From NCBI RefSeq assembly GCF_000003815.2, contig NC_049984.1, forward strand, positions 18,356,326 through 18,420,325: 64,000 nt of DNA, given 5' to 3'. Under the pieces are notes generated by a model that saw only the letters and a program-made list of their open reading frames with translations, was not told where the DNA came from and searched no databases. Within the stretch, counting starts at the first letter, position 1. Each line of letters opens with the position of its first letter. The stretch comes from Branchiostoma floridae (Eukaryota > Chordata > Leptocardii > Amphioxiformes > Branchiostomatidae). This document shows positions 621 to 61,100 of this stretch, piece after piece. The translations under genes and the position numbers were made by a program.

Positions 621-1516
621 ACGTTAGCCAGAACCCTCCAAGAATCACTACACTATGATAATTCATAAGCATTTAGCAAGAGTGGGGCAGTTGGGAAACA
701 ACAATGTAAGCTTTCCCCTACGGACATCTGCTTGAAGGTTCTACCCTCTACAGCTCTAGGAGGGGGTCTCTCTATTCCTCAATACTAGTAATTGTACCCT
801 TGGTGTTTGTCTAGTTCAGTGTTCTGTTTTGCTATTTTGACAAGCCTACCGAACTGACGGTGTTTTGTTTTCCTCCATCCGACCGTGGAGCCATCCCAGT
901 TGGCAAACATCCACCTGTTCCCCTGCCGATGACCTCTGTGTCACTTCCTCCGGAACGATGTTAATCCGCATGATCTTTACCTCCGAGGCACAAACATAGT
1001 CTGGTGATGTTAGCAGTCAGAGGATTTGATGCTTGGTTGCATCCTGTAAGAAGAAAACGCCCACACATTATGCCAGTATTTAATTCGCTCACTCAGTCCT
1101 ATATCTAGTGTCCATAGGGGCAGTCTATCTGTCCATAGAGGATCTCCATCTCTGGCAATCCAGTCATCAGCCAGTATAGACTATTAGTGTTAGTATTAAC
1201 TATTGCAAAATTCGTTGACTCTTATTGATACATGAAGGAAGGGAAATGGTATCAAATCAAATTTTTAATATCAGTGACTATCCACCAAAGCGCACATGTA
1301 AAGCGGCATGTTTAAAAAAAACTGTTTCTTTTTGACACACTTCAAGAGCTGTATAACTCTCAAAATAACTTCAAAAGAAGGGCGCAGGATGGATATGTAC
1401 AGCAACTTCCTGTCAACTTGACTCGTAGCAGAATGGGATCTATGATATAAGGAGGTTCCTCGTCACAAAATTGAAACAAATTTCAATACAATAAAACACG
1501 TAAGGATGTCTATGGG

Positions 1517-1610
1517 TAGCCTGGGTATCTTTTGATTTCTACCGGGGCTCCTTGCACTCGCTGTCCTAACATTTTAGGGCCCTAGTAGAAATCGGATGGT
1601 ACCCAGACTA
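1517..1610. mobile_element. TAG...CTA MITE (TAGCCTGGGTA family), short copy
   Basis: Starts TAGCCTGGGTA and ends TACCCAGACTA, 94 bp. It is flanked by gtctatggg (1508-1516) and gtctacggg (1611-1619), a 9-bp target duplication with one mismatch. It shares its ends with the elements at 5816-6204 and 55711-55883. Confidence 0.65.
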
Positions 1611-2158
1611 GTCTACGGGCGGGACTGAATAGAACCCCCCACCCCCACGTTCCCCCAGCCCCTACGGGAAAGGTCTGTGTATAGAAATGAAACTTGCACG
1701 TAGCCCCTAGCTAGCTCGTCTGCTTGACAACATGGTTTCGGGCCCTCTCCGTATCCCTTCTGTTGTTTATGCAACATTCCAGGTTGACGCACTCAGCCTT
1801 GTTGGGGTGTCAATGGCATCAACACAGTTCCACTATATGTAAAGGCGGGTGCAATGACACTGGCTTACAGCGTTAGCAATCTTCCAATCTTTTGGTGACT
1901 GTCAACAGACGTGCTCTTTTCAATCATTCGACCTCATTTTTTAAAAGACTTTTCACCTTTAGTAAACATTTCACCTTTCTTATTCTCCAGACTAGGAGGG
2001 CACCTGTTGGGACAACAAAGGGGTGGAGCTGACAAGGGGTTGGTGTTGATGACCTCAACTTCAAGCACAGACCGACTCTAAGACCGAAACCCTTACCTGG
2101 AAAAGCACAGAACGGCAAACAGTTTTACCTGGGCACACTTGTCTCCTGACGTGCCAAC

Positions 2159-2789: not shown

Positions 2790-5700
2790 GTGAGTCTTTT
2801 TTATCATTACGTACATCCAATTAGAGTCTTAAACCGCCTTGGTAGGTTGCACCTTTCCATCCTTGGTATGCCAGGCAGATCTACCGACGGCATAAGGAGT
2901 TTACCCGGCCAACGAGTGCTCTGAGGCCCCGTCGCCCAAAACACTCCCTGGCCAGCTAAACTCCTTTTGCCACTGGTAGATCTGCCTGGAGACTAGGTAT
3001 GCCAAATGTAAGGGAACTTTTGCCTGACCAGAGTCTACTATAATTACCTCCATGAAATGTCATGGAATGGAGGTTATATTTTCTGTTATGTGTCTCTGTC
3101 TGTGTACAAGATTACTCAAGAATGGATGGATGGATTGGTTTCATACTTGTTGTGTTGGTGGGGTGTGATGAAAGCTCGAATTGATGAGATTTTGGGAGCC
3201 GTATCTGTCGTTATAATCGATGTAATAATATCAGAAATCACCCCTATATTTGAGATATATTGGTACAGGCATCATGCTTTATGTGTTTGTTAATGGGCTT
3301 AGCTGCAAGCAGATAGTGAGGTGACAGCTGTTTGGGGAACCCCCAATAGTTTTATTTATGTCTGCTTAGGACTGTTTGGAATATTTGTAACAGTTGGCAC
3401 ATTAGTGCCGCTGTTTGCCCAGCCCAACATTCTAGAACATCTGTTTTGGGAGGCCGACAATTTTGATTGTGGTAATAAAGTTTATTGCAAATTCATGCCC
3501 ATTGGGCTCATTGCAAGAAAAGAAACATGAGATACATGAGATGAATGAATGTGGTCTGAATACATGTAGATAAACTAAATTCTAACATACATAACGTTAT
3601 ATTAAGTGGATGAATATACATACGATACATAGGGTACTAAGTCTACGTAACTATTACAGGGTTTGACTTCTTTCTTGAAGACATTTGAAAATGAAATGCC
3701 CCATGTGTTCTATAATAGATTGATCCCTTGATGTTAATAGGAAGAGAATCTTTTGTGGCGTTTTTAACAATGAAAATGTTGGTGTGATTTCGGTCACTCT
3801 ATCAAATAGCCTTTTTCTTTCGGCTTCGAATTGGGGGCATTCACAAATAAAATGTGTTTCATTTTCCACTGCATTCGCTGTGCACTGCTTACAAATTCTT
3901 TCTTGAACAGGTAGCTTTTTGTATCTTCCTTTCTCTATTCCTAACGGGTGCGAACTAATTAAATTGCATGTATGTACTTGTGCGTTTGGGGACACAGTGT
4001 GTTATATTTCGTTTGTGTTGTTAGATGTTTTGTGGTGCGCCATGCGTAACGCGGAAGTTTCGTTAGTATGTAATTGGATGTATTACATATCTAATATGTG
4101 GATGTGTTAGGTTATCCCTTATCTGAACAGTTGTTGCGTATAGCAACTGGTTAAGGTAATGTAACAGTTAACTCCTTAAACGTTAAAGCAACTGTTTCCC
4201 GATGCTGGGCGACTGTTTCCCGATGCTGGACAATTTGAATATGATAAATAACTTTGTATTTAGCCACTTGTGCCTTTGGGGACCTGGTGTGTTATACTTC
4301 GTTTGCGCTGTTAGATTTTGTGCTCCGCGTGGCTTATGCTGATGTTGTGTTGGTAAGTACTTGCATTATTATATATTTGGCATCAACTTGTCCCCGTATC
4401 CTAAAGCTAGGTATTGGTTGTCGGATATTTCATGTCCTTTTGGTTGTGTTGATGATGTGTTTGTATCCTGTATTGTATTTCTTGTATTGCATTAGTGTAT
4501 TTGTCATATGTCATATTATGACAAAGCATACAGTTGCGATTTTACCCAGTATGTAGAACATTATGCCTGTCTTGGAAAATGAGTGGTTACTGTCTGTGGT
4601 TTTCGCACCTATATTTTGTTCCCGTTTGCGATATTGATATATGGTTTGGTGTGCCTGTACACAGTCGTCCTACGATGCACGTTGGTTCCTTGGTTTTCTC
4701 GTATGTGATATTATGACAAAGCATACAGTTGCGGTTTTACCTAATATGTATGACATATTGCCTGTCCTGGAAAATGAGTGGTTACTGTCTGCGATTTTCG
4801 CAACTATAGTTGATGTCCCCTTTGCGATATTCGCATATGGTTTTGGGGGATTACCAACTATAAACATACATACCATCCACAAAAAAGCAAAAAATATTCC
4901 ATGGAGGTTTGAGGTCCCCGTAGCACAGTATAATGCCTTCAAGTTGGTAGATTGCAGTCCCTCGGATTCTCACATAAGCTAGCGACCAAGACAGGGTGTT
5001 TTTCTCACGTTGTTGGGCAGTTTCCAAGCCTTCTCAATACACAACATCAGTTCACTCCTACGTATCTCCTACTAGGCTTTTATTCCTAACTTGGCCGAAG
5101 TCCCATATTTCTATTCGACCAGAGCGGAGTCTGGTGGAGATTACAAGCTCCCCACTTAAACCACAAAACCTACATTAAGGGCATGTCGGATATAATTCAT
5201 TACGTTGTAACTACATTGCTAAATGCTTCGAATTTGCTTGTTAGCATTACCGTAATGATTGGCGTGTACCTTGACTTAACCTAATTATTCTATTTATTGT
5301 CTCAGAAGCGTACCCATGTTTATTTTCACTTTGACACTGAGTTTTTAAACGAAATTAAAAGCTTTTCTCTTTTTAGTCAGAATTTTCAAAAGTTCAACGT
5401 CATTGGCACCGCAAACGTTTTATAAAGTCACACACAAAGGTCTAGAAACGACGACACGAAAATGAAAGTCCTTTGCGCAACCGGTGGCCAGGCGCGCAGG
5501 AAACATGATCACTTTATGTTGACAGTATTGGCTGTCATGTAGACAGTTAAGACGTGCACGGAGTAAGTTCTCACTACCTGTTTGGTTCACTGATGATGTG
5601 CCATAAATAGCAGCTGGAGAAAACGCAAAACAGTTTCTTCGTTTTCAAAACGATGAAAGAATTCGGTGCAAACACGTTCATTGATTCATCATTCGTAACA

Positions 5701-8700
5701 GCTAGGACTTTTTCGGGTATCAACGCTAGGTGTGATACACTGGCATAAGCCACACTGACCTAATTTTATGGAGGACATATGGAGGATCTTCTCCTAGATC
5801 CTGTTCTAAAAAATGTAGCCTTGGTACCATCCGAAAAGTAGTTCGCTGCGGCGTTTATTATACGCTATAGCTATCTATATACAGTCGCTTCTCGCTCTGA
5901 CATTTATCAAACACTATTGTACAATCTCTTCTCTGCTGTTTCGTCTGGGAACCCTGACCACATTAACGTCTGGAATCGTTCAAAATCTGGACGAGGGCGC
6001 ACATGAGCGAATTGAGGTTCAAGGGCTTGTTCGAACAGGTGTTCCAACCCCCGAAACGCCCTCTGTCCGCCTGCGGTCCTGTTATCTTCGAATGAGCGCT
6101 CACTGACATTACCACCAAAAGGTTTTAATGTGCAGGTCCCCAGACGGGTAGCAGAAGCGAACATATAATAGCAGCGAACTAAAATCCGGATGGTACCTAG
6201 GCTAAAAAATGGCCACATGTGACCCAATGCTTTTTTGCTGGAATTTTATTTCTTCGCCCTCGCGCATTAGTCTTGTGATCTCCAGAGGATGTTATCCATT
6301 AAGTTGAGTCAGTGTGTCCTAAGAAGATTGTACAGATCATATATAGATAGATAGTTAACTACACGGACTTCTGATAGACATACTTATCTAGTAGTACGAC
6401 TTAAAAACATTCACTTTTCTGTAGACTGAAGAGGTTTGTTTTCCCTCATACATGATAGATTTATATTTACAGCTTGTGTCTGTCCGTCTGGTGCCACTGG
6501 CAAGCGTCGCAAAAAGAGACAAGGTATCGTACAGTACAGAAATTGTACTTTTGTGATCGTAAGAGGCAGAACGTGTTTGAAAGAAAGCAAGTTGAGAAAT
6601 GAAGCAGTCTATTAATTCCGAAGATACAAGCGTTCACGGTAATTCATAACATTATGACTATGACGCTTTTAAAGATATGAATACTTTAATTTTTTAAAGA
6701 ATATGATTATATACATAACGTTACTATATAGTTTGTGCATTAGGTGTACGCATGGAAAATAAAGTATCTTAAGGTGGGGTCACACATGCGTATATATTCG
6801 AGTCCGTTTGAGGTGCGTATGAAGCTCCTAGTCTCTACCAGGCTCCACAGGTCGCGGGAGAAATAGTAAAAATTGGACAAATATAGATACATAACATGCC
6901 AGATTAGTTACCTGACCGAGAAGTATGGTTAGCGACCCAGCTAACTCGTCTGGCATGTTACCTGTTAACGTTTGTCCAATTTCTATTATTTTTACAACGA
7001 CCTGTGGAGCCTGGTGAAGGCAAACACTCCCACGCGTGCCTCATGCGGACTTAAATATATACGCAGGTGTGACCCCAGGTCGAGTCGCCTGAAAAATGAA
7101 TACTACATGCGATCTATGTGACTTGTAAAGCCGACAAACTGAGCAACAATGGAACACTGGTCACAGAGAAAAAAAAATGCTTGTCGTGAGTGTGAATATC
7201 AACACGTACCTGCTTGTTTGAAGTTTTTAACATACTGGTAGTGTTTACATTACCCTTAATAAGTCTTTTTTTCTTTTTTTATCACACCCGTTTTTGGAAA
7301 CCCGGTGGATTCCCTATCGACGTACAGTTCAATACACTACAGTTGCACAGGCATACCAAACAGATACACAGGCATACCAAACGGATACACAGGCTTACCA
7401 AACGGATACACAGGCATACCAAACGGATACACAGGCATACCAAACGGATACACAGGCTTACCAAACGGATACACAGGCATACCAAACGGATACACAGGAA
7501 TACGAAACGGATACACAGGCATACCAAACGGATACACAGGCATACCAAACGGATACACAGGCATACCAAACGGATACACAGGCATACCAAACGGATACAC
7601 AGGCATACCAAACGGATACACAGGCATACCAAACGGATACACAGGCATACCAAACGGATACACAGGCTTACCAAACGGATACACAGGCATACCAAACGGA
7701 TACACAGGAATACGAAACAACAGATGCACAGTCATACGAAACAACAGGTGCACAGGCATACGGAACAACAGGTGCACAGGCGTACCAAACAACAGGTGCA
7801 CAGGCATACGAAACAACAGATGCACAGTCATACGAAACAACAGGTGCACAGGCGTACCAAACAACAGACGCACATGCATACCCAACAACGGACGCACATG
7901 CATACCCAACAACAAACGCACATGCATACCCAACAGATGCACATGGATACCCCACAACCGACTCGGACGAATGTGTCTGTGAGGAGACAACGACAGTAAC
8001 CACAACGGTCTCAACTACCCCACCAGAAGGTAACGTATAAACCTGTGAATATATAGGATCCCTTTCGAATACATATATATCGGATCTGTTTTGTGATTTT
8101 GCATTTTCTATACACAGTGATAATGAATACACATATTAATCTATTCTTATAAATATGACACATACAATTGCAATGCATTTTCTCGTAAATGACTATGTAA
8201 AAAAAGACGATCCCAAATATCATTGTACAGGTACGTTAACATTAATGATAATTGCGACTAACCCTTTTAACGCGTCCCCTTACATAGTGGATGGGTGCAG
8301 CGAGACGTACAACCCCTGTGTACAGAACGCCACGTGTACAGACATTTCCGGTCCCGGAATCACCGACGCCAACTGCGCATGCGGGCCTGGACTGGAGGGT
8401 GACGGGAGAAGGGACGGGACAGGGTGCAGAGGTCAGCTTTCACAACTTGTACATGCGCAATGCAGATCGTTACAGCTGGTCTGAAACATCCTCACACGCA
8501 GAGACATCCAACGGCGCTAGCAAAACCGCCACTTTCTGTACTCTGCTATCTCAACCGTCACGATCAGTTCCTAACCGCCCTGCTTATACATATTGATGAG
8601 CGGCCTTTGCGAGATTCCTTTTGAAAACGGAAAGGCCTATTCTCTGATTGGCTTACAGCTGATTTGTGACGACGCCCACATAAACTGATGGTGACGGTTG

Positions 8701-11700
8701 AGATAGCAGACAATAGGCGGTTGGCTAGCGCCGTTGGATTCTCTGCGTAGGAGAATGGTGTAAAACTGTTTGATTGTATCATTGTGTGATAATCTCATAG
8801 ACAGATTGACCCTCATTGATTGATAATCTAATAGACAGATTGCCATATTGCAAATAGGGATCCGTTTACTATAATGATAGGGATGAATGCAAGGATATAT
8901 ACACTCTTTTGGAGACCACAATATGCTAGTTATAGAAAGTTGGACAGAGAAACATTGTTGCGTGGCCTGTCTGCAAATTGATGCATTAGGTAACTTTCTT
9001 TTGTATAGATCTAATGTCCTCTATTTGCAATTTTGTTTTCCATAGATATCGACGGATGCAAAAACAGCGCCAGTTTCTGCGCGTTCTACGCCACCTGTGT
9101 GGACAATCCCGCACCCCAAACGGGGGCGACCTGTCAGTGTGACGAGGGGCATGACGGGGATGGGAGGATCGACGGAACAGGGTGCATTGGTATGGTTCAA
9201 ACGTTGACTCATAAGCACCTCATTTCTCAAATGTTCATACCTAATGAAATCTTGCAAATATAATAGATCTAATGAAGTACATTTTGTAGTACCAAATGGG
9301 ACTGGTTGAGGTTGGTAGAAGTAAAGAGGTTGATCATTTGTGGGTCCTCTCGCATGTAGGCTTCTCAAACCATCATGACGTTTTATTACTGTAAACAAAA
9401 TGATGTAGAATAACAGACAAAATATCAGTAGTGGTAAAGTTTACGACGTTTACACTGAATATACGTTATGATTATCCTACAGTTGTGGACGACAGCCTGT
9501 ATCCATTTGGCCCATCGCAAAGAGACTTTGAGTACGTGGACAGGACCTGGTACTGGTCCCGCTGCGTTTACCAGTACATCTCGCCAGAAGGCTTCCCTTT
9601 CTTCAACCGAAGGCACCATCGGCTTTACGTGAGTACTAGTATACTCATACACACGACATACCAAAGATTTTGTTCATGGAATTTTTCCTTTCCGTACTTT
9701 TTAGTTGTAGGAATAAGTCTGTCCCATCCTGTCCCATCATTTCATACGTCATCACCGGCCTGGTCAAGGTTTCGTCACCGTACCTTAAACGCGATTTGAC
9801 ACAAAACTATCTGTCAATCTGTCTTTAAGATCTGCGACAACGGCGTGATCCAGTTCGACCGGAGCTACAGGAACAGCTGGCCGACCAAGTTTGGTTCCGC
9901 CTGGTACATGCGTTACCGGTCCATGATCGCAGCCTTCTGGGCATACTCGGACCCTTCTTCCTTCAGGTAAGGAATTGGACAAATTCGTTTAAAGCTAACG
10001 GCACATTTCCACAAAGGGGCCCGGCCGGGTAGGTTAGGGCCCGGGATGATTTTTTGCACTTTTGGTTCGCGGTCCATGTTTGCAGCCTGTTTCCTTGACC
10101 ACGTTCAAATCGGTTCAATTCATCGTTGCTCTTATCAAACAATCTTAACATCTCATTTTATGTCCGTTTCAGTCGTTTTGAAGAGGAGACGCTGAAGTCC
10201 CACATCTACTACCAGGTGTACAAAGAAGGTGATGGTAAGAACGACACATCTACCATCTTGTCCCGTGCCAGTGAAGATGCCCGGAACACTCCAAATACCA
10301 ACGTTCCTTCGGGTAAGAATATCAACAATCATCCTTAGAACTAGTAAAGCGTCTACATTGTCTTTCATAACGTCCTATGTATACGATACTTCGGAGAAAT
10401 CTCAAAATTCTTTTGAGCAAAACATTGACGTTTCTTCCGTGAAGCCTTAGAGTTCCTTCGGCGTTCCTCACCGCTTGTTGGAGTAATGAGCCCTCAGTGT
10501 TTCTTGTAGCAAAACCTCTATGCTGTCCAGCATTTGTTGAGCGTCTATGACATTCTGTATTTTCCCTGTAACCTTGAGCAGACTTCCAGGCTAACTGGGT
10601 CCTGGTTGTGACGTGGATCCGTCTGCCTCCCTATGTTGGGTGTCGGTCGTACTACACCAGATGGTGGTACAGTTACTACTACTGTAACAGAGATCTCACG
10701 GAACTCGAGGTGGGTTGACCGAAACGTCAAGTATGTGGAATACGAAATGGCATATACATAATGTCCTCACTATACTCTGGCTTCAGCCTATATTAGTCCT
10801 AATCTAGTTTCCAAAATCAAACTGGATTGTAGTGATGTTCAGAAACTAATTTTTCTTCCAGATAGTTTGGAAGATGTTTTTCTGTAGGATCATCTGCAAA
10901 GTTGCCACCGGAAACGCTTAGGCCATCAGGCACTTTTATTTAGTTCTATCATAGATATTCAATACGTTGTGTTGAGATACGAAATGCAATGATTATCTAA
11001 AATGATGTGTTTTAGGTGAACTCCTTCCAAGCCATCCTCATCACTGACGGCATCTACTCGTTTGCGAAGTTTGTTTACCCCAAGAACGGCATCAAATGGG
11101 TCTATCCTGGTAAGTACATACATGTACTTTGATAACGTTTCTATCAATATAGTAGCGATATAAAGTACACTTCATCTGTAGGTTTCTTATACGCAGATGT
11201 TGGCGGTGTCGGGAAAAACTGTCTAGATTGTTCCTATGCAACACCGGCAACTATTGCTAGAGGGCTCCAAAACAGAATGCGCCATGATTCCCCTAACCTT
11301 TTGGTAAATTCTAGAAGTTCCTTCAAATTGGAGGTAGACTGTAACTGTTATCACACAGTATTATACATGTATAAGCTTTCTAGATTATTGTCAAGAATGT
11401 TGAAAATTTGAAATTACTTTTTGGCTGTATGAGCTGTCTGTCTGTCTGTCTGTTGGTCGGTCGACCGGTTGCTTGGTAACTTCTCTTTACATCCTAGATG
11501 TGCAGTGGCACTACTACCGTTATTACGCCAATCTGAGGGGCCTTCCTGTAGCCGGGTACGGGGCTGGGGACTCGTACTTCTACAAGTGAGTCAGGGAAGC
11601 TTACGATGAATACGTATTTTATTCTGCCCAGTTAGTCTTCTTTGTTCCTTGCAAAGTTTTCTTTTGGAACGCTGGTGAAATACACATTTTACTTAACAAA

Positions 11701-14700
11701 ATGAATTATAGTAACGGCAAGCTTCATTATCAACCCAACAGCTACTACTACTATTACTGGTCGTGGGGCTACCGAGAACATTTCTACAACGTACCCAAAT
11801 CCGGCACACTGAACATGCGGAGTATTGATGAGGTTCCTGGTAACACAGGTAAGTGTAAAAGAATACATTTTGAACTGAAGTTATACCTTCTACATTTTCT
11901 ATGTTTGACCCAATTTCTTTATGCAAATGTCGTTACAAAAACAGGACTATACTAACCGGTACCCCATCCATCCAATAGGATTTCTGACACGTCTGACTCA
12001 TAGGTCACGTGTCAGTAAAGCCAGAAGTAATTTCTGGGGCATTTTTACATAAAGAAGGCTGCTGGAGACACTGCCAATTGGTTTTAAAGGTTCAATTCCA
12101 CATGTGTTAGATTGTGATCTTCGCGTCATTTTCAGGTGAGACAGGCGTGTCTATCTACCGTTTGGAGGACTCCGATGGTTCCATCCCGCCGACAATCTAC
12201 TGCCGCCGCTGGTACCACAGCACAACCCCGGCCTGGTACCACTGGGGGTACTCCCGCCTGACTCCGTGTCCGTGCAGCCGGCAGCAGGCGTGGTGGGATG
12301 ACAGGTGGGGATCGTTACAACAACCAAAGATCAGCAAACAGAATTTTTTTCAGAGCCCATTTACCGCCTCTATATTTGAAATGTACCATCATCCTCCATG
12401 ATCCAAATAGTTTTACTCTTTAGTAGTTTGTGATTTTATATTTGTCTGCTATTATCTTATGAAGGTATCATGAAACTCTGTTTTTTCTTGCTTAGGCCAA
12501 GGAGGTTAAAAATCACATTTTTAACCTCCTTGCTTAGGCTTAGGTGCCCGTTAGGAATGTAGCCCCGACCGGGCTCCAAAGCCACAAATTTGTCACTGTG
12601 GACTGTTAGATACCGGGGGTACCCCTCAGCGTTCCCCCATGGGTAGGCAACAGCGTCTATTTGTTACCGGGTCCCGGGTTCATTTTAAGTCTGACTGAAA
12701 TTCAACCCAGTGCCAGGCACGAAAATACCCCGTGAGCCTCAAGGTGTCCCACTGGGCCCCTTTTTCCTATTGGGACCTAAGCCTTGTCTTTTGATCCTTA
12801 GTTATGTACTTCATGCTACAGATACTTCTACATTGGGAACGATTGCTGGCAAACCCTCTCGAACCGGTTCGGCCTGCGGCAGAAGTGCTGCTACACGCAG
12901 TACCGCTGGTACTACATCCGCCGCTGGTTCTACAGCTGGTGGTCCGGCTGGCAGTACTACTTCTCCTGGTTCCGTACCGGAGGTTTCCTCATCAGGTACG
13001 GCAGCAACGCCGGACACGTCATCGTGGTGAGTGTTGTGTGTTGAGTATGTGGAATGGGCAAGGGTAAGATGGGACACTTCTGGAGGGAGTTTGCCTGTTG
13101 GGGTAGTGTGACGAGAGAAGAAGAATAGAATGGACTATATCTAAAATTTAGATCATGTGTCTTGTGAACTTGATTGCGAACCTAACAGTGGCGTTGTCGT
13201 CAGGATTCGAACCTGCGCGGGAAAATCCCAATGGATTTCCAATCAACAAGAAATGTTGCTATTGATTGTTTTGTTTTATAAGTCACGAAGTCGGTTGCAC
13301 TTATTATGGCGTCTTTCAGAACTGCCCGACAAAATTGTACTGTTCTGAATAATTTGTACCTGAGTGTACACCAGCCATAGAAACAAGAACAACATTACAA
13401 AACTGCCATGAACATATTTCTGCACACAGAATTGGAACGATGACCTGGTTGCCCAGCGGAAGTGCTGTCAGGAGTCCTACTCTTACTGCCACCTCTTCCG
13501 GTACAGACGGCCGACCAACCGCTGCTGGGGGTACAGGCCGCCATGGAGAAGTAAACAAAATATTCATACTTACCAATAGAGTAATATCAACACAGACTTT
13601 TTGGCTGCTTGTAGTTTCCTCTGTCATAACCTAATGAACTCTTCTATTCCATGGGGCATGGTGTTGTTGTAGCAAGGACAACATAGCTTCAAACGTGACT
13701 GTGCCCCTCCTCCCTGTTCATAAAATATCGTTTAGAATCACACACAATCCAATTGGAAGTTATTCAAATTTTTACAAAAATTCCGGTGCCTTTCCAATTC
13801 TAAGATTACCAGTTGAGACATGGTAGAAATCTTAAAGTTAAAACAAGACCCTTTCAATTCTAAGATTACCAGTGTTTAGACATGGTAAAATTTTAAAGTA
13901 AGACTTCATTGTTGTACTCCCATCACCTAGGATGGTTCTGGGGTGACCCACACATCATCACACTGGACGGGAAAGGCTACACATTCAACGGGCTGGGAGA
14001 GTACCTTCTGTTCCACGTGGACGACGGAAACTACACAGCACAGGTGCAGGCCAGGACTAACAAGGCACCAGGTAAGGCTTCTAGGAATCATTATCTCTAT
14101 GAAAAATTGAGACATTGTTTCGGGTGTCTTTGTGTTTGTGTTTTCGGATTTTTCTGGTCAGCCTAACATGATAACTCAAGAACTTCTGGATTTCGATGAT
14201 ATTTGGTATGGGAGAAGATAAAGTTCTAGGTCGATTTTGTATCTAGTAAATGTGGTCCTGCAGCAGAACTTCCGTTTTGTGTGTGTATATTTTGACCTGG
14301 ACATGCTATGGTCTTGATTTTTTTGGTGGCAGATAGCTTGTGATGTAAGCAAGACGTGGTGTGTGTTTGGGGCCCCCTAGCACTGGTTGAGGAGAGTGTA
14401 ACAACACCTTCGGGGCAGATGAAGCTCTCTGAAGCCGTGGTAATCTTTCATACCATGAAGTTCTGCTGCAGTACCGTAACAAGCCGCTAGAGGCCCCAAA
14501 ATCTAATCGTTTCCAGGTCTCATCAAGACCTACCTACATGCCGAATATCAAAACAATCCAGGCATTCAGGCATTCTAGAGTTATGCTGGTCATCGATCTA
14601 CACACACATACACACACTCGTAACACAAACTTTGCTACCGAAAACATAACCTTCTTGGCCAAGGTAAATAAAAAAAAAACAGCACCCTACGCCAAATTTC

Positions 14701-17700
14701 CAAATTTCGGCCACCCGGCAACTTTCGGGAACGAAAAGTACAATTTATGGTATATAAGACACCAAACTACAAAGGACGTAAAGAGAATCGTCTTTTCAGT
14801 ACCGATAAGTTACTCTCCAAGCAGAGGTTGAGTCTTACGAGGAGCGCCGGTGTAATTTTTCCGACTACTACTATATCTACGCGACTCAACCTCTGCTTGG
14901 AGAGTACCGATAAGTTATTTCCGGGCCCTTGGGGACACTCACGATGTAGCCGCTGGCTAAAATCGCGCCCCTAGCGGCCGGCCTTACGATTGCCGCCGCT
15001 CTAGGGAATTCTCGGGGGGGGGGGGGGGGGGTCATTAACCCCAACCAGCGAGTGATTGTGTAAACACAGGCTAACTCATGATGTACTAGTGTAGCCGTTG
15101 TCGTGGGATTAATTGTTTCACTGTTTTAAGCCTGTCTTGACAACATTTAGTACTCTGTGCTACTGGAAAGGAGAACTATATGTTGCAAAGACATGACATA
15201 ACAATATACAGTCCAAACGGAAATAATAGTTTACATGAAAGAATAAAAGGTATGTTGTTCACAAAAAAAGTCTGAACATCAAACTTTTCATCTGGTCGAG
15301 TATTAATCGTTCTAAGAAATAAACAAATTAGTTAATTAAAGGTAAGATCTAAAGAAACAAGAAAAGGTCTTAACTTCCAACATCTAATTTGGTTAAAGTT
15401 TAAATTATGGATTCTAGGAAACCAACAAAAGGTTAAAAATAAGGTTACTAGTACATATAGATAAGAAAAAGTCTGAATATCAAACTTTTAGTATTCATCA
15501 CCAGCTATGCCCTAATGAGTCTACGAAACAAAATACGTGTAGTTGACAAAAACACCAGGTTTAAACAAGAAATTATCTGACAATCTGACTTATAATACTA
15601 GTACTCATCACTAGCTACCAACAAAAGTCAAATATGAACTAGTACTACAAAAATCCTGACCATCTAATAGGACTTGTATGCTCTAATGGTTCTAAGAAAC
15701 AAAACAAAATGTTGATACAAAATACCGGGTTTAAACAATAAAAAGTATGCCCATCTAAGTTATAATATTCACCATCAAGTTCTAATGATTCTCATAAAGA
15801 AACAAAAATTACAAAAAAGCTGGTTTTAACATAAAAGGTCGACCAGCAAATGATAATTCTAGGAATGATTTTAAGAAATAACAGTTAACAAAAAACGTCA
15901 GGTATAAACTAGAAGTCTGAACAGCTAACTTGTGAGTTGGTGGAGTTATAATGACTGTATAACTCTAAACAAGAGCTTCTGAAAAAAGCTAGTCTTTCGC
16001 TTACTTATATTGTGTAGGTAAAATTGTTTGGCATAGTTTGGTCAAGCGTGGGTGCCAAGTCTGCAACGTTGGCAGCTCTGGCACAGTTTGGTCAAGTGCT
16101 AGGTTATATAACTGTTTAGTAAGGTAGTGGTTCTCACAGAGTATATTTTACTTGAACTGTATAATAACACAACTGCATGAATGATGTTAACTTTATTCGG
16201 ATTGTTTCGCTGTTAAGAACGGCTCTGTTACAGTACAACAGGGTTTTATGAAAGTGCACTGTAGTAATCAAATTTATCAGTAGATGTGTCCTGAATTTCT
16301 GCAAGAACAAACAAAGTATTGTCACCATAAACAACTGAACATAAAATATTAACATGGCATATACAGTAATGGAAATGTTTTTTTTAATGGCAAGATCATG
16401 TGAAAGGTAGATATTTTAAACTAAAACAGGTCCGTGGTATGTTTAATGGAACGTTTCGTTTCTTTTAGTAACGCAATTATGCTTTTACTTGACGGAGTCG
16501 TGACGTCACGCGTCAGACTCACTCCGTCGAGCTCGGTCAGAATCTTCCCTTTCGAAATTATAAATTAAATGTGGGTAATTCTATTTTCAACGCATCCGAG
16601 GGCTACTATTTTGCTGAAAGAAGTTTGTTACACGAAAATAGCCTGAAATTTCTTAGAGTAAGAAATTTCCGAATACGCCCCCCTCCCACACCATGTCAGA
16701 TGCGGCGCACGCATCTTACACAATTCTAGATTTTGTAGCGGTGATTTTCCATAAAACAAAGTAAATGACATGTCAAACTGTTCTCTACAATGTCTGTTTT
16801 ATTATAACCAAACAGCGAACATGTTAGTTTATAAATTGTATACAATCTTACGAAGAAATCCTCACCGTTCACATCCGTCTCTGCAAATTCCTGCTTATAA
16901 GCCATACAGAAACCAAGCAGCACATTCATGGTAGGCCGATACGTATGTCATAACGTTACATACCGTCGAATCTGCAGGGTAGAATATCTCGCTAGCACGA
17001 TATGGCATGGACCGCAAACCAAGCAGCACATTCATGGTAGGCCGATACGTATGTCATAACGTTACATACCGTCGAATCTACAGGGTAGAATATCTCGCTA
17101 GCACGGTATGGCATGGTCGACCCGGACGGACGGACGGACGGACAGACGGACAGAAATCTAATATCGGTCTGATTGCCTTTCGCCGCGGAAGCGCGGCGAA
17201 AGACAAAAAGCATAAAAGATAGTTAACAAACAAGGGGTGCAAATAAGAACAAACTTTAAGTCAAACCATCTAGAAAAAAAATTCGAAAAATGTTTTGCAA
17301 GAAAACGTCTGTACATCTAACTTGTAAAATACATCATGCTATGATTCTTAGAGCTATATTGATATCATTCAACATGAAGCTTTTCCTTTTTCCAACCAGT
17401 CACCTAGAGAATAAAAAGAACATTTGGTAATGATAGACATTATGTAGAATTTGTCTATGCATCATCTTTGACAAATTCTACATTATGTCAATCATTACCA
17501 AATGTTTTTTTTTTCTTTTTTTTTCTTGAAAGAACGCTTCTACATCAAGATGAAGTAGACTTCCCACTATCTTGTCATGTTCCTGATTAATATAGTGTGG
17601 ACTTTAAAATGCTGCTGCAGAATAGAATCACACTCGGAGTAAAACTTGTCTTCCTTGCAGTTCTCAAATTGTCAGCAGGTAATATGCTCTCACTGGCATG

Positions 17701-20700
17701 TTTATCAAGAATGGACATACTTTCAGAAGTGTCATAATAATAAAGCATACTTATGTTTTTCTTCTCTGTCAGTCCCTATATATTGGTTCATATGGAAACC
17801 TGCACTATTCATACTCAGTTCACTGGTGCACGATGGTGGTTTTCCTTGCTGCAGAATGGTCACACTCACAGGTCACATTTGTTGTAGCGTTATTTCATAT
17901 ACATGTATATGAGTTCTCAGGTACCTGTATCCTCATTCCCCACATAGGTAAGTTTTTTTGTCCAGAATGTTTTGCCTTTATGTGGTAGTACAACCTGGAT
18001 TTCCACGTTGCAGAAAAGTTGCACTGGTCACCCTTGCAGGGTTTCTCTCTTGTGTATATGGATTTTCATGTGAGTAGATAAGGTAGACTTTAGAGCTGAC
18101 CTGTACCCACACTCCCCACATATGTAAGGTTTCTTATCAGTGTGTTTTAATAGATGGTGTTTGTTCAAGCTGGATTTTTGTGATGTAGAATAGTCACACT
18201 GGTCACACTTGTAAGGTTTCTCTCCTGTGTGTTTCGCTAGATGTAGGTTCAGGCTGGATTTCTGTGCTGCAGAATAGCCACATTGGTCACACTTGTAGGG
18301 TTTCTCTCCCGTGTGGATTCTAATGTGAGTAGATAAGCTAGACTTTAGAGCTGTCCTGTATCCACACTCCCCACACATGTAAGGTTTCTCACTGGTGTGC
18401 TTCAATAGATAGTGCCGGTGCAAAGTGCCTTTCCGTCCTGCACAATAGTCACACCGATCACACTTGTATGGTTTTTCTCTTGTGTGTTTTGCTATATGTT
18501 TGTTCAAGCTGGATTTCTGTGCTGCAGAATAGTCACACCGGTCACACTTGTAGGGTTTCTCTCCTGTATGGGTTCTCATGTGCACTAATAGGCTAGACTG
18601 TAGAGCTGCCCTGTATCCACACTCACCACACATGTAAGCTTTCTTTCCAGTGTGTTTTGATAGATGGTGTTTGTACAAAGTGGGTTTCCCTGCTGCAGAA
18701 TAGTCACATCGGTCACACTTATAGGGTTTTTCTCCAGTATGAGTTCTCATGTGCAGAGATAAGCTAGACTTTAGAGCAGTCCTGTGTCCACACTCCCCAC
18801 ACATGTAGGGCTTTTCACCGGTGTGCTTTAACAGAAGGTGACGGTGCAAAGTGGTTTTCTTTGCAGCAGAATAGTCACACTGGTCACACTTGTAGGGTCT
18901 CTCTCCTGTGTGTTTTGCCAGATGTTGGTTCAGGTTGCCTTTCAGTGCTGCAGAGAAGTCACACTGGTCACACTTGTAGGGTTTCTCTCCCGTATGGATT
19001 TTAATGTGAGCAGATAAGCTAGACTTTAGAGCTGCCCTGTATCCACACTCTCCGCATAGGTAAGGTTTTCTATCAGTGTGTTTCAATAGATGGTGTGTTT
19101 TTAAGCTGGATTTTTGTGCTGCAGAATAGTCGCACTTGTCACACTTGTAGGGTTTCTCTCCTGTATGTGTTCTCATATGTTTTAATAAGCCAGCCTTGTA
19201 AGCAGTTCTGTACCCACACTCCCCACACATGTAGGGTTTGTCACCAGTGTGCTTTGCTAGATGTGAGTCCAGATGGCATTTCTGTGCTTTAGAATAGTCA
19301 CACTGGTCACACTTGTAGGTTTTTTTGCCAGTATGAGTTTTCATGTGTCTGGATAGGCAATACCTGTGAGCTGTCTTGTATTTACACTTGTCACATGCGA
19401 AAGGCTTCTCACTTGTGTGTTTAGCAAGATGGTGACGGTCCAACTGTTGTTTCCATGCTGTAGAATAGTCACACTGGCCACACTTGTAGGGCTTTTCCCC
19501 TGTATGGGTTCTCATGTGCGGAGATAACTGTGACTTCCAATTTGTCCTGTACCCGCACTGCCCGCACATGTAGGGCTTTGTTCCACGTTGTCCGTAGCTG
19601 GGATCTTCCATCTGTTATGCAAAAAGATTGGTGTAAATCATCATTGAACAACTTGTCCTATTTCTTTTACGTTGGATTGATATCGCAAAATAAAACAAAA
19701 TCATTTCTCCCTGTGACATACACACAATGAAACTGAGCTTCGAAGCTTCATTTAGTTAAACAGTACAATATCAGTGGCTGATTTTCAAAACCTGAAATGT
19801 TGTAATCGATATCATTCATAGTGGGCAGTTCCATTCTTTTACTACTACCAAACTGTTTCAACTGTGAATGTACAAAACCGGCTAATTCCGCCATTAGCCG
19901 GTTTGCCTAAAGCTTTTGTGCCAATCTGTCTGCATCTGACGTAAAGGTAACGCATACATCCCATCAGTGCGCTCTATGTTGTGATATACGGGAGCACACC
20001 GTACCAATTGCAGTTCTATTATTTCCTGCCAGGGAGCGTAGCTACACACAGAACAGGTCGGACCTGTTTTTCCGCGGTTTGGACCAGACCGGGTTTTCCG
20101 AAAACCCAATACATACCTTTGTCAAATTCAAAGTAACAAACAGCTGTGCAGAACTCTCACAGCTCGGGTCCTTTAGAACGGCACCTTCTGAAACAAATAA
20201 TTATAATGCCCTCAATTACCTAAGGCATGTCACAGATCAACTGTAAACGTTTCACGGATGTCGGTTTCAAGAGGTGTTGGCAAAACATCAAGCATGCCCT
20301 ACAAACACTATAAGCAGAAAACATCGTACAAACAGAGATAATCACGACATAATGACAAATTTTGTGGAGCAAATGTGCATCACTGGATTATCCATATACA
20401 TGTATATCAGGGGATATCTGGAGGACGTTATACGTAGATGATCAAACTCTGGTGGACACAAAATACAGATAAATTTTGCGAAAATATGAGTTGTTTTTGT
20501 AACGTTAAGTTGCCAAAATGTATAATTTCTCTCAGTCACACACGTCGCTAGATCTCTAGCATCACACGGTTTACACCCCCCCCCCCCTGTCCTATTTTAG
20601 CGACGATTTAAACTACCAAGGAACTTATCTATTGCTTTTCATAAACTTAGGCAAACATAATGGAGAATAAATTGTAAAATTTGTACCTCAAATCGGCGGT

Positions 20701-46900: not shown

Positions 46901-47876
46901 GCAAAAGAATGCATACAAGCAGAGCTTTGAAAAACCGTAGTCACAAACGTCCTACGTTTTTTGGTCGAAGGATTTTTAACACGCTTGCATCAAAACTAAC
47001 TGTTGACTAAATATACGACAACATTTTCCGTCACGAATGCCGCCTGACGTTTGTACGACACTTTCCCAATGTGGTGTGAAACATGTGGTGCGACGTTTGT
47101 GACAAGGGTGAAAAAATATAACGACAATCTATCTGCCATTGCTGATGTTGTCATGTATCATACTAGATAAACATGGTCACAACTAACCTTCTTCGATGTT
47201 CAGATCGTGCACCGCTTGAATCTTCAGATGAACATCTCGGACAGCTATTTCTTCCACTGTGTACCTGTCAAAGGAGCGAAATGGTCAAACAAATGTACTG
47301 CAGTACCTGATGGAACCGCAACACCATTTTTCATCTCCATCTCAGGAATGTTGAAATTGTAAAGCCATTAAATTGGTTCGTGCTCTACCTTACTATCACG
47401 AGCTAGTCCGATACCGCTTTGAAAATATGATCAACTGTAAATTAAGGGTAAATTTTAATAGCAATCCTTCATACCTGGGGCAATCAACAACATGACTACA
47501 TTTGTATTTTCATGTATAAGAGCAGGGTCACCAACTAAACCAAATACGAGAGGAAGAGAACAATTAGGCAAAAAGGGAAGCCGTCAAGGATTATCATTGC
47601 ATTTGGGGTTTTAAAGATAAACTAAACGTCAAACTGTAATTCATTGCCGCCATTTTGTGTATCCACTTGGGACTATAAATAAAAACCTATGTAACCTGAT
47701 ACCAAGCAGAAATCCCGCCCCCGAGTAGAGACAACCGCAGCAATCTCCATAAACATTCTCACATGAATGAGGACTTCAGTATAAAAGCAAAAGGTTTATA
47801 AGCATACACAAATGTACCTCTGATAGGGAGGGTTTTCGGCTTGAGCTGAGGGGCAGGCTCCTTGATAGATAGACAT
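40923..47876 (-). CDS. METTL21-like protein (lysine) methyltransferase, six exons, 249 aa
   Basis: Exons in transcript order: 47876-47818, 47264-47188, 45241-45198, 44130-43926, 43129-42972, 41129-40923. All are GT-AG and in phase; 750 nt in total ending in TAA. It is a Rossmann-type SAM-dependent methyltransferase of the Methyltransf_16 family. LTGQRIWSAAK leads into the fold, motif I is VLELGAGPGLPGL (residues about 79-91), the acidic loop SDNKDLVL follows, then LQWGDD, and FDVILGADLAYFRPDIPLL (about 152-170) matches the post-II (D/E)xxY region. The last exon gives FVLAYKDRTRKK...FEWEIYQAAKRCG and ends LHLLLIKHRAT. Vertebrate relatives methylate Lys on chaperones, eEF1A or VCP (family knowledge); the substrate here is unknown. 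The exon-4 donor (GAGAG|GTCTGT) is weak. The exon plan (44, about 205, 158 nt) equals that of the plus-strand paralogue. Confidence 0.85.
41139..41463. mobile_element. Palindromic element with a CRE-like core inside intron 5 of the methyltransferase
   Basis: Inverted arms of about 115 bp (41183-41300 and 41331-41448), each holding aaggaatgaacaatccactg, then ctgctgtcgtgacgtcac. 15-bp direct repeats agtttcatggattaa lie outside (41139-41153 and 41449-41463), like a target duplication. A partial second copy is at 43279-43405. Each arm contains TGACGTCA. Confidence 0.7.
41740..42260 (+). repeat. Diverged tandem repeat, about 163-bp period
   Basis: 'accaaatttcaggtcattcg' like landmarks start near 41750, 41913, 42075 and 42226, each followed by an 'acgacggtacaggaggcaaa' like block. 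Periods are 163, 162 and 151 bp. The overlapping plus ORFs have no stable frame between units, so this is not coding. It lies in intron 5 of the methyltransferase gene. Confidence 0.6.
43279..43405. mobile_element. Partial copy of the CRE-core palindromic element
   Basis: Contains caaggaatgaacaaaccact, gtcgtgacgtcacgttatg and, inverted, gacttctaccaatacagatg, all found in 41139-41463. Intron 4 of the methyltransferase gene. Confidence 0.6.
43769..43876. mobile_element. Short MITE with CATTCTCCTAC ends and an 8-bp duplication
   Basis: Element 43777-43868, 92 bp, starts cattctcctac and ends gtaggagaatg. Perfect 8-bp target duplication atttgaga on both sides. Same ends as 8487-8757. The 8-bp duplication suggests hAT ancestry. 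Intron 4 of the methyltransferase gene. Confidence 0.75.
45580..45728. promoter_or_regulatory. Tandem ATTGG/CCAAT-box array, about 55-bp period
   Basis: Three units (gttgattgggtggaaacta at 45580, tgctgattggctggaaacta at 45632, gttgattggctggttacta at 45688), each followed by an 'aagtaag' and 'catttaccac' block. Another agccaatcgg lies at 45547. Each unit holds an NF-Y type CCAAT box on the minus strand. The array is in intron 2 of the minus-strand methyltransferase, upstream of exon 3, so it could serve an internal promoter. Activity is an inference. Confidence 0.4.
46236..46372 (+). repeat. ACTAC-type minisatellite/microsatellite
   Basis: Degenerate (actac)n and (actatactac)n run between a 'gtatctctatac' lead and 'actataaaagccgtc'. 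The short ORF over it is a shadow. Confidence 0.8.
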
Positions 47877-55701: not shown

Positions 55702-55892
55702 GGTTACGTTTAGCCTGGGTACCACCCGAATGGTAGCTCACTTCAACTTTTATTATATACTAGTACAGTCGCTTCTCGCTCTGACATTTATCATACACTA
55801 TATACAGTCGCTTCTCTGCTATTTGACGGGCAGCAGAAGCGAACATAGGAGCGAACTACTTTATCAGGATGGTACCCAGGCTAGGTTACGTT
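55702..55892. mobile_element. TAG...CTA MITE (TAGCCTGGGTACCA family)
   Basis: Element 55711-55883, 173 bp. Ends tagcctgggtaccacccg and ggatggtacccaggcta; 'gtagctcacttc'/'gaagcgaac..' inner parts also pair loosely. Perfect 9-bp target duplication ggttacgtt. Shares its interior with 5816-6204. Confidence 0.85.
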
Positions 55893-56219: not shown

Positions 56220-56427
56220 AGGCTACAGTAGTCTCTACCAGACTCCGAATCGCTGGAAAAATCGTAGAAATGGAACAAATAGAGGGGTAAGCCGGCCAGA
56301 GGAATATAACCGACCAGGGAACAGCACGGGATCGCGAGCTGTTCCCTGGCCGGTTATATTCCTCTCTATTTGTTCCATTTCTACGATTTTCCAGCGATCC
56401 GGAGTCTGGTAGAGACTAAGGCTACAG
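56220..56427. mobile_element. TAG...CTA MITE (TAGTCTCTACCAGACTCCG family), copy 2, inserted in a 5S-derived element
   Basis: Element 56229-56418, 190 bp. Ends tagtctctaccagactccg and cggagtctggtagagacta. Perfect 9-bp duplication aggctacag (56220-56228 and 56419-56427). The duplicated bases are part of the 5S-like end, showing that the MITE landed after the 5S-derived element was in place. Confidence 0.87.
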
Positions 56428-56538
56428 CAATCCGGACGTCCTTGGTTGGTCTCCCATCCAAGCACTGTCCGGACCGTCGCGTTGCTTAACTTCCGAGATC
56501 GAGGGATCGGGTGTACCAACGCGCCACGCGGCCGTAGC
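56421..56538 (-). rRNA. 5S rRNA-like sequence (probably the head of a 5S-derived SINE)
   Basis: On the minus strand it starts gctacggcc and ends gctgtagcc, so stem I pairs. It contains cccgatc...cgatctcggaagttaagcaa and cttggatgggagacc, the 5S internal control boxes A and C. Length 118 nt fits 5S. Several positions differ from common animal 5S, there is no T-run terminator after it, and it continues into a SINE body, so a SINE3-type element or pseudogene is more likely than a working gene. Confidence 0.65.
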
Positions 56539-58166
56539 ACGAAAATGAACTACAACCTAGTGCAAGTGGTCTACGTAAATTATAAATCAAATCTTAAAAC
56601 ATCTATGATCTAGTTAGAGAACGCTACGTCTACAGTGATATACCTATGGCCTTCAGCTGGCCAGCAGGCGGATCTGATCATTAGATCCTCGTTTATAGAG
56701 CTCTACTGCGGCATGTTTCCCCTTACTAAATATTTGCTGCCACAGTCCTAATCAGCTATGACCACATCTCAAATATCCTTCCCGCTGCGACGATCACGTG
56801 TAATACAAACAAAACGGAGGGACGTCTGAAATCCGAAAATTCGTCAGTCAACATGCAACCGTGCAAGACGTTTGCGATATACAATGCTAGTATATTGTGG
56901 ACAGTACCCAGCCAAAAGTTCATTCGGAAGAATAGTGCTGCCCAGGATTTCTTACGCGTACGGTTCCAAGCAGAGGTTTCAGTCTGGTGGGGTGGGGGGC
57001 TATCCTCTACCACTACCAGGCTCGGTGAGGAAATGACTAGTCGACTCCTCTGGCCGGCCGACTCTAGCCTGGAATCCAGCCTTGTTAGCTTTGTTCCGCT
57101 CCCTACTCGCCAAGCGACTAGGCTAGCTAGGGGAGTCAGTCGGCCGAGTAGGGACATTCTCCTAGAGGCTAGGCCGACTCCCTTAGCGCACTATTGACTC
57201 TGTCCAATTTCTACAATTACTAATTAGACCACCAACGGAGGTGGTAGAGGCTGGGGGGGGGGTAGGGGGCGGGTTGGAGCTGGATGGAAAAAAAGAAGAG
57301 ACGTGTTAACTGGATGGAAAAAAAAATTGGCCAAATAGGCCAAGTAAGTTGTCATGGGATTTCAGTCAGTCGTTTGCAGTCTATCCGGCCAAAGTCCCTT
57401 ATTACAATTCGGCCAGCCAGAGACTAGGGAAAAGTAGAGCCAACCACCCAACCACCGCGACCGACACATCTGCTTGAAGAATACAGTATGGACGCCACAT
57501 GAACAATGTTGTTACATTGAATTTTGCGATCAGTCACTGTCGTAAGCAGTTTCATAATTCACAAAGCTTTAATGGTCCCCATACTGGGAGGAGTTTCATT
57601 TAGTAGCTTAAATCGACATATTCTCCCTAGACACTGCTGCAAATATCCAAGATAGGGAGAGTTGATCTTATCAATTTTCTTCTGGTCGTTTCGGATAACG
57701 TTTCTTTAGATGCAGCAGAAATTTGTTTATCTTTAGTTGTAAACAAGAAAAACGCGGCCAGCTTGGAACGCCCATGTGTACATGTTTAGCGAACGGCATG
57801 CTGGGAAATTACTGCTAGCAGGGAAAGATTGAAGTATCACCTTTCATTTGTCTTTGCAAAGATGTATTGAGCAACATGGTAAAGTTTGTCTGTGACTAGT
57901 ATTTTCGTATCACTAAGGCAATTTTGACTTTGTACTTCGGACGTATTTCCACAAAGAAATACTGTATCAATAGCGTGAAAACCCACCCCGGATTAAATCG
58001 TGCTACAGATTACTGAATTGTTACCGCCCGCTAGTGTGAAAGCTCCGCCCCACCCACGATCAACAAAAACAAAACCTTGCATGCATTCGACAACAGAACA
58101 CAGCTGACGAGAACCATGTACTGTCTGTTCCCCCCTCTGCTCTACCGTAATACGGCTACCGATAAC

Positions 58167-61100
58167 ATGGAGCCTAATGATGAGTTGTTACAGAGTGTGG
58201 CGAGTGACCGGTTCCAGCATAAAGTCCATCATTCTCCACACAGGTACACGTTAGAGGAGGTGAAGATCAAAGATGTAGCGCTGAGACTGGTGGCCGTTCA
58301 TCAGATGGAGATGCGGGAAGGTAAATTTATTATTGCAAGGCATAATTTTTGTGTTAGCATGGATACCAGACTCCGGCCCGATCTAAATATCTATATCTTT
58401 ATTTTTTAACCTCCTTGGTCTAACTCAGTAACTCAGGGGGCCTGGTGTAGAAGTTCCTTGTGGGCACGTTGTACCTCCGGAGCCGAAAACTCTGTAAACA
58501 GTCTGGCATCCAGGCTATAGTAATCTCTGCGAATAAGGTACTGTTTCTGGTATGTTTGTGTGCTAAGTCAAGATTCTCTCTCTCTCTGTGTTTGTGTGTG
58601 GTAGGTAGGCTATTGTTGAGTTATCAATGAAAAATGTCGATTTGGGGCATCGTACAGCAGTATAATTTTTCAAAGTCTATTTTATTTTTAATCCAGCGGT
58701 GCAGGTTACGATTTACGCTGAACTCGTATCTGGCTGCAAAGTTTCAGCGATGACTGGCGTGATTACGCCGCTTCAAGTTTTAATGATGTAAACTGTAAAC
58801 TGTTATATACGTTGTCTGACCCTTGCCTCTTCCCTCATGCCTCAATGAAAAGCGGTCTGCAGGCCGATTTGAGCTTTCATGAATAAACAAAGGTTCAAAC
58901 CAAACAAACAAAATATATTGTGTGATTTTTCTCCAGAACACACGCTTGCCGAATGCTTCTTATCTATAACAAATTCTAAGACATTTTTTCACTCCATCAC
59001 AGTCTACTAGTATCTCCTAGTATTTCAAAAGGCGATCAGCATAAATTATGCGCTAAAGGCTTCACTTCATATGTATTTGATTGGTCACACCAAGGAGCTC
59101 CTTGGTCACACCAAGGAGGTTAAAGAAAGAGACCTCCTTGGTCACACTGAGGGGCATTTTTACATCCCTTGGTTACACCAAGCATGAACAATGCTTGGCA
59201 AATGCAGCACAAAACCTCCTTGAATGATCAACAAGATCTTGACAAGATCAACCATGTAGCTGTCAACATTTGAGATGATGTGTCCATAGTCTCCGTACTA
59301 TAAAAAGTACCAGCTTTCATTCACGATATCTTCGTTGTTTGTTTAGGCCCCCATTCCACTAGGCGATCGCTCTGCAACCTAGTCTCCAAGCAGACCCTAC
59401 GGTGCCTTAGAAATAGTATCAAAGCTGGCAAGGCACCAGGTGCCCGTTTGACTCCCTTAGCCGGCTATCTCCCTTTGGCCGGCTATACTCCTTTGCCAGC
59501 TTTGATATTGTTTCCAAGGCACCGTAGGGTCTGCTTGGAGACTACTGCAACCTCGCTGTGAACTCAAATCGGATTCGTGTCACAATTGACTTACTTGCAA
59601 AATGTAAAAGGGTGACTAAAAGTAAAACGACAACGAAGCACACAAAACGTGGAAGTATTCGTTATTCATGTACGAAAGTCGTTGAGCGCTCTGTAAAATT
59701 TTAGATTCGATTCGATTTGGATGAGATAATCTGATCCTAACTTCCTGCTGAACTGGTACGGGGGTGTTGGGGGATTTCAATAGATGTTATCATTGCAAAT
59801 TTGCCCAGTCGCACCCATGAAAGAAAGTCCAACCGGGTCATGAATATTCCCCGGGCAGTGCCTTTACATCAAGCTGTGTAATTGCCGTTTTTTTTTACTT
59901 CATTACGTCCATTTTCTCGTTAGTCAATGTTATGCAAATGTGACAAATCCCTTGTCAATGTTGACATTTTACACAGAAAAGACATATAGAAAAGCAACAG
60001 AAATCGACACTGTATACTAGTAATTCTAACTGATTTTCCCGCCACTCACTGAACACTGTAATTGCACCATGCAAGACACAAAGTTTACCCATTGGATTTG
60101 TGGTTCGCAAACAACATCGGTGCTAAAACCACTGTAATGGAGTTCCATATAAACAGACAACTACCCTCTTAAACAACTCATTCGTGATAGGATTAACAAA
60201 AAGAACGGTCTCTATTGTATTATAGAGTAACTCATGCACACTCTATGCGTGCATGGGCTAGAGGAACATATGCATGGATGAAACGAAGGGATATTTCCGT
60301 TACAACCTGTCAATAAAAGTGCATATACCTGTCGATAAAAGTGTACACGTGCATTCACTTTTATACCTGGCACTTCTAGGTGAGATGTACCAGATCCACT
60401 GGTTTGTAAAAACATAAACGACTGTAATAATTGGAGATCTAATCTGTCCTAATGAGATCAATTAGGGCCAAGAAAAGTAGTTTCATGGATAGCGTCAACG
60501 CGCGCATTGATTTTGCACAGTACTAGAATCCAAAAAAAAAAGGAAATCACTTCTTTCAGACGAAAAGCAACGACTTACGATCGACAAAAGTCGTACAGCG
60601 ATAACTCAACTAGCGGTGACAATCCGTGAAGTCTCCGTGGGTGGTATTACAGCTATTTCTAAATACGGTGTAGGCTACACTAATGTGTCAAGGACTTCGG
60701 GAATTTCATCCATAAAATTATTGTTATGCGACTTTTGGACCATGTGGGGTTCGATGCATAAAGCTATGCATATAAAATCTGCAGCACAGCTGTGTCCCTC
60801 ATCTTCGAGCAGATGTTGACTTCAGCGTTCAGCCTGCTTGCTTTGCAAATAAAAATGCATGTGCTTTTGTTGAACGTTTCAGGCGTACCCTACCTTTTGT
60901 ATGTATATAGGTTCCGATCCGCATCCACTTCTCGACAAACGTGCAAAATGCTGCAAAACACGAATATTATTAAAGCAATTCAGAGCTGCCTGGAGATTAC
61001 AGCATCCATACATAAAGATAATACAACTCAACCCCAGTCCCCTAGTACCCCCTATTCCCCATGTATCTGGGTCCCCTAGCATCCACCAGGCCTTCCTACG

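Follow-up and report, generated by a model that had tools for sequence, protein, structure and literature searches.

Short inverted-repeat elements with TAG...CTA ends and 9-bp target duplications in a 64-kb stretch of the Branchiostoma floridae genome

The stretch of DNA analysed here, 64,000 nucleotides of the lancelet Branchiostoma floridae (NC_049984.1, positions 18,356,326 to 18,420,325) and hereafter the window, contains a series of short elements with similar TAG...CTA tips in inverted orientation, most of which are flanked by a 9-bp target site duplication (TSD). The model we favour, and which we hold to be probable, is that they are non-autonomous cut-and-paste DNA transposons, namely miniature inverted-repeat transposable elements (MITEs) often of the fold-back kind, and that a single transposase lineage cross-mobilised them, most likely one of the Mutator type (Mutator-like elements, MULEs). 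In this model, the elements would depend on a DDE transposase whose gene lies at another site in the genome. This enzyme, most likely a member of the Mutator/MULE group, would act in trans, binding and cutting at a terminal motif close to TA(G)(Y)CT together with subterminal bases. The excised element would be joined to its target with a 9-bp stagger, the fill-in of which would generate the 9-bp duplication. The interiors would be free to change, thereby giving rise to several short families with similar ends, amplified at different times. The enzyme, its class and the cross-mobilisation are what we infer from the ends, the duplications, the grouping of the copies, their unequal divergence and their capacity to form hairpins, which can be read directly in the window.

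An initial annotation had proposed MITE-like elements with a common tip, 9-bp duplications and differing interiors behind similar ends, and this picture is supported by the placement of the ends, by the duplications and by BLAST grouping. Its nine elements and their flanks are all present, but two boundaries were one base off (22397-22572 becomes 22398-22573, and the start at 59381 becomes 59380). The duplications were counted in twelve elements placed by their tip or by homology, the left edge of 2874-2995 being kept at the coordinate given by the annotation, where pairing with the right arm begins. All nine bases agree in five of them, namely 2874-2995 (ggtatgcca), 14811-14906 (ccgataagt), 39933-40039 (gcttttagc), 55711-55883 (ggttacgtt) and 56229-56418 (aggctacag), and eight of nine agree in 1517-1610 (gtctatggg/gtctacggg), 21385-21580 (gctgtaagt/gctgtaaat) and 22398-22573 (caaatcaag/caaatcaat), the last with the ends TAATCTCC...GGAGATTA. 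The 9-bp duplications of the annotation are thus borne out for most of its elements, but two reach this length only with a small deletion assumed and the parse shifted by one or two bases. At the tip parse, 5816-6204 (389 bp) has a duplication of 7 bp, extended to 9 bp (taaaaaatg) by a two-base loss, which could be that of TA at the right end, and the fold-back element 59380-59544 has an exact 8-bp duplication (ctgcaacc) at the TAG parse, extended to ctgcaacct if one T was lost. The remaining two placed elements, the degraded 6829-~7013, whose right tip is gone, and the old copy 63335-63528, show no duplication (4/9 for the latter; for the former, 2/9 as placed and 5/9 by eye with the end moved one base, so that its TSD is unclear). 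Similar tips are found throughout, but the fold-back 2874-2995 is without the left 9 bp of its tip, a gap that might be explained by a 9-bp microhomology deletion between the CCA ending the duplication and the CCA ending the expected tip.

A scan for inverted repeats beyond the nine annotated elements added one clean case, three degraded or single-ended copies, one element without a duplication and one doubtful case. The clean case is 14811-14906, with the tip TACTCTCCAAGCAGAG and a perfect 24-bp terminal inverted repeat (TIR), and a solo end on the plus strand at 21226-21245 is 95% identical over 20 bp to an end of this element, no partner end being seen. The TAG...CTA inverted-repeat element 58355-58517 has no duplication (4/9). 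At 57065-57171 the tips TAGCCT/AGGCTA are flanked by an exact 9-bp repeat (ggccgactc), and we keep the element as doubtful because its TIR matches at 8/16 only, the six-base tip alone is continuous and local repeats lie around it. Most elements of the set have the attributes of MITEs, being short (94-389 bp) with a TIR at both ends and a TSD; the exceptions are 2874, with one tip gone, and 6829, 63335 and 58355, with no TSD. Three groups are represented by two to three copies each inside the 64 kb.

Could the pattern be the product of chance inverted repeats flanked by chance direct repeats? The window holds 1436-1455 inverted-repeat pairs at the same threshold, and some of the scan matches are palindromes or chance: 41195-41436 was dropped since it belongs to a longer palindrome whose apparent TSDs are reverse complements of each other, and 13478-42111, an 8/9 repeat with a TIR of only 5/16, was taken as chance. 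The scan for TA tips (TIR of at least 13/16, ends 60-1500 bp apart, TA at both ends) was compared with 40 dinucleotide shuffles. It returned 71 pairs in the window, six of which have a 9-bp TSD of at least 8/9, against none in any of the shuffles, which held a mean of about 24 TA-tipped pairs each. No TA-tipped pair reached 8/9 when the compared flanks were moved outward by 10 or 20 bases, and the rate of such agreement for random pairs at matched spacings is about 0.00065. Other TSD lengths gave one exact match at 7 bp (5816) and one match at 8 bp with at least 7/8 (59380), and none at 6 bp exact, at 10 bp with at least 9/10 or at 11 bp with at least 10/11. With the tip condition dropped, eight 9-bp matches of at least 8/9 were found, two of which are the palindrome 41195-41436 and a re-placed 5816, against three in all 40 shuffles together. 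Exact repeats then occur at several lengths (11 of 5 bp, 4 of 6, 7 of 7, 3 of 8, 4 of 9, none of 10, one of 11 and none of 12), many of them being the same elements with their ends moved one or two bases inward or outward. The case for a TSD of 9 bp depends on placing the ends by the tip, since exact 5-, 7- and 8-bp repeats turn up as well when no tip is required. The shuffles, together with the location of related copies at different sites, refute chance for the main set, and we give this explanation next to no weight.

BLAST comparison within the window sorts the elements into four groups. F1 unites 5816 and 55711, which are 76-80% identical in two pieces spanning 55711, the interior of 5816 having about 200 bp that are absent from 55711. 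F2 contains 21385 and 56229 (90.5% identity), both near full-length fold-backs, and part of the degraded 6829. F3 contains 22398, 59380 and the old 63335 at about 66-70% identity over the copy length (about 70% between 63335 and 22398), whereas F4 is 39933 alone, with an 18-bp TIR and a single 34-bp match at 10050-10083. Since the divergence between copies is so unequal from group to group, a transposase would have been available over a long time or repeatedly. Two short matches link 2874 to 22398, and its right end is of the F3 kind; for 1517 and 14811, BLAST within the window gave no match to any of the four groups.

The ends cut across this grouping. In a side-by-side listing, the ends of 1517 (TAGCCTGGGTA / TAGTCTGGGTACCATCC) resemble those of 5816 and 55711 (GGTACCATCCG), and those of 14811 resemble those of 22398 and 59380 (TCTCCAAGCAGA). 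The left end of 58355 has a 13-bp run in common with the 21385/56229 group, a length that 0 of 1000 shuffles attained as a maximum in a test of shared runs beyond base 6 over 21 group pairs, which was devised after this match had been seen. In the same test, 14811 and the 22398/59380 group have a 9-bp common run (p 0.004), and four other pairs of the 21 lie at p 0.02-0.06. An earlier sum-of-pairs test of the tips gave borderline values (p 0.057 and 0.045), which do not suffice to claim common sequence beyond the tip in all groups, and one extended tip common to all groups is not supported by the end comparisons. The annotation had spoken of at least five families unrelated beyond the tip: the interiors do differ and most pairs are unlike, but some groups share 7-13 bp, and in view of the BLAST grouping and of the common 13-bp and 9-bp runs the word unrelated is too strong. 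Similar ends are thus associated with more than one interior (2874 and 14811 compared with 22398/59380, 1517 with 5816/55711, and 58355 with 21385/56229), as cross-mobilisation predicts.

The hairpin character of the set was assessed by folding thirteen elements with RNA parameters, each against 40 random window stretches of equal length. For twelve, the folding energy undercuts the mean of the random stretches by more than 20 kcal/mol, the margin for 58355 being just 14, and ten are lower than every one of their 40 stretches, the exceptions being 55711, 63335 and 58355. Folded as DNA, 56229 reaches -88.9 kcal/mol (z -21.9 against its own shuffles). From these results, several elements are near full-length palindromes, like fold-back MITEs. 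The loops of the F2 hairpins, 21461-21530 and 56295-56368, match the microRNA (miRNA) family mir-4879 (RF03893) in searches of short stretches (E 3.2e-06 and 1.3e-04). The scores obtained for the F2 hairpins, one of 31.6 and one of 37.3 bits, are far under the gathering score of 100; the family is absent from the matches of a whole-window search with E up to 10, and the main sequence in common is an 8-bp run per arm. The hairpin 2872-2988 matches MIR8788 at 44.6, also under its gathering score (124). Perfect hairpins alone can yield such matches, given that mainly 8-bp runs are shared and that the MIR8788 match is itself sub-gathering, and we rejected the miRNA-family matches as support. The F2 hairpins are possibly a MITE-derived miRNA, or possibly a mere effect of hairpin bias. 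Lancelet miRNAs include names of the 20xx and 48xx series (PMC6775235), which agrees with a lancelet source but proves little; mir-4879 by name was not found in the literature searched. A further weak match, to mir-2060, lies on the minus strand at 24364-24451 (31.9 bits, gathering score 54.5), in a stretch holding variants of a repeated ccttggtgctgaacac motif.

The insertion sites themselves offer two observations. The F2 element 56229-56418 is inserted exactly at the 3' end of a 5S ribosomal RNA (rRNA)-like sequence on the minus strand (56419-56539; RF00001, 51.7 bits against a gathering score of 38). This match reaches the last position of the model, and its final nine bases constitute the right duplication of the element, aggctacag. 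The match could represent a 5S gene copy or a pseudogene, or else the head of a short interspersed element of the 5S type. At 10 of 10 sites the duplication has A or T as its central base (for 5816 and 59380 when the shifted parse is used; p 0.004, uncorrected for the nine positions), so that a preference for A/T at the centre is suggestive only. For maize, insertion profiles of RescueMu are described as having a G/C-rich 9-bp TSD within CCT-(TSD)-AGG (PMC545602).

The assignment to the Mutator group is a prediction from TSD length. MULE duplications are 8-11 bp long and often 9 bp, with TIRs that are often long (PMC6446971), and 8 of the 12 placed elements have 9 bp at 9/9 or 8/9, which makes a Mutator-like enzyme the best, and most likely, fit. 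Several points weigh on the other side. No transposase was found among the 30 of 49 listed open reading frames (ORFs) of at least 110 aa that were scanned with Pfam (counted from stop to stop, the window has 177 ORFs of 75 aa or more), and for that part the statement of the annotation that no transposase is in the window holds. One ORF overlapping 5816-6204 has no Pfam match, the remaining elements being judged by size alone, and no autonomous copy with these ends was seen in the window. PMC6446971 describes MULE transposases in B. floridae as not confirmable, despite one report claiming MULEs there, and no source in the literature searched gives TAGYCT as a MULE tip. The six tip strings had no match in the literature text searched, and the degenerate tip pattern had 0 matches in viral contigs, a collection that may omit entries from the genome to which the window belongs. 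Three of thirteen elements (6829, 63335 and 58355) are without a duplication, and 59380 suits an 8-bp TSD as well as one of 9 bp.

It is possible, though we doubt it, that the same MITEs owe their mobility to a transposase that is not Mutator-like, be it Merlin, a hAT- or P-like enzyme or an undescribed lineage with TAG tips and a 9-bp stagger. We could not link the tip to MULEs, and the 8-bp parse of 59380 would suit such an enzyme. For hAT elements, the TSD is 8 bp, which is not the length seen in most of the placed elements. Merlin also has an 8-bp TSD, and IS3EU elements have TA..TA termini like those here (PMC10045372); however, 9 bp fits eight of the twelve elements at the tip parse and exact 8 bp fits one, and the TSD of IS3EU/GingerRoot is usually 6 bp according to the same source, a length at which no TA-tipped pair in the window has an exact duplication. 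A variant in which a single undescribed lineage, marked by TAGYCT tips and a stagger of 9 bp and lying either outside the known superfamilies or an unrecorded chordate clade of MULEs, repeatedly moved at least four MITE sets with different interiors seems to us unlikely. Alternatively, each MITE family could have had its own transposase, the tips being alike by short convergence. Fifteen of the 21 group pairs are at chance level for terminal likeness beyond base 6, which counts for this explanation and against a single lineage, but a 9-bp TSD is found in all four groups (55711 for F1, 56229 for F2, 22398 at 8/9 for F3, 39933 for F4), and some groups have the 13-bp and 9-bp runs in common. We regard separate enzymes as quite improbable, and one transposase type for all groups, most likely Mutator-like, is the simplest reading.

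Other features of the window lie outside this set. Pfam matches were obtained in four of the 30 scanned ORFs, to proteins of the epidermal growth factor (EGF), seven-transmembrane or zinc-finger type. The genes are of the kind found in animals. They comprise an array of C2H2 zinc fingers at 18031-19614, whose repeat style suggests a lancelet, a G-protein-coupled receptor of the rhodopsin family at 37355-38737, and two stretches with EGF domains, one at 28453-28782 and one, under the curated cut-off, at 8140-8481. No transfer RNA was found in the window by ARAGORN. An exact 9-bp direct repeat (gatctaatg) at 9017-9265, with an imperfect TIR of 11/14 and no TAG tip, encloses by eye an EGF-like exon and may be an old element or chance; further tipless matches of the 9-bp scan are at 49308, 41203, 24949, 41339 and 16301. 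A palindrome of about 260 bp at 41186-41445 is another fold-back type. The inverted-repeat element 42689-42874, starting with CGTCACTGCGGG, has an exact 8-bp flanking repeat, caagcttg, itself palindromic, and is of a different element type, and the inverted-repeat element 46935-47108, with the ends CCGTAGTCACAAACGTC / GACGTTTGTGACAAGGG, has an exact 7-bp flanking repeat, tgaaaaa. The window ends in a tandem array, at 63658-64000, in which a 78-bp unit is repeated 4.4 times at 94% match.

In conclusion, the pattern is best regarded as the trace that small elements usually leave when an enzyme encoded at another genomic site moves them, here most likely one of the Mutator type. In favour of this model, lancelets are reported to have at least 40 autonomous superfamilies of transposable elements, most of them apparently active (PMC4284660). 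If the ends belong to a MULE, they would bear on a point left open in print, the unconfirmed MULE transposases of B. floridae (PMC6446971), and the end sequences supplied here provide the means to look for the autonomous element. If they do not, the window illustrates the ordinary MITE landscape of a genome rich in transposable elements. Likened by description only, the LanceleTn elements are MITEs of a lancelet too, and some elements of the window may be members of that series, already described and named. The LanceleTn MITEs of amphioxus were reportedly the subject of work by Osborne and others in 2006. The insertion of a LanceletTn-2 in an intron is mentioned in PMC5802833. The MULEs, including Phantom and Rehavkus, and their MITEs have in common with our set the 9-bp TSD and the TIRs, in places long (PMC6446971); they differ in that the window shows no transposase in the 30 scanned ORFs and that the TAGYCT tip is unmatched to a described MULE in the literature searched. 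A precedent is Tm1, a Mutator/Foldback family of root-knot nematodes. It differs from our set in its host, in its outer motifs, which are 7 bp long and asymmetric, in the tandem repeats of its TIRs and in having a known copy that bears a transposase, of the Phantom MULE type. It resembles the elements of the window in its fold-back ends, its MITE-like members and its TSDs of 8-10 bp, mostly 9 bp, in 45 of 53 elements (PMC3169594).

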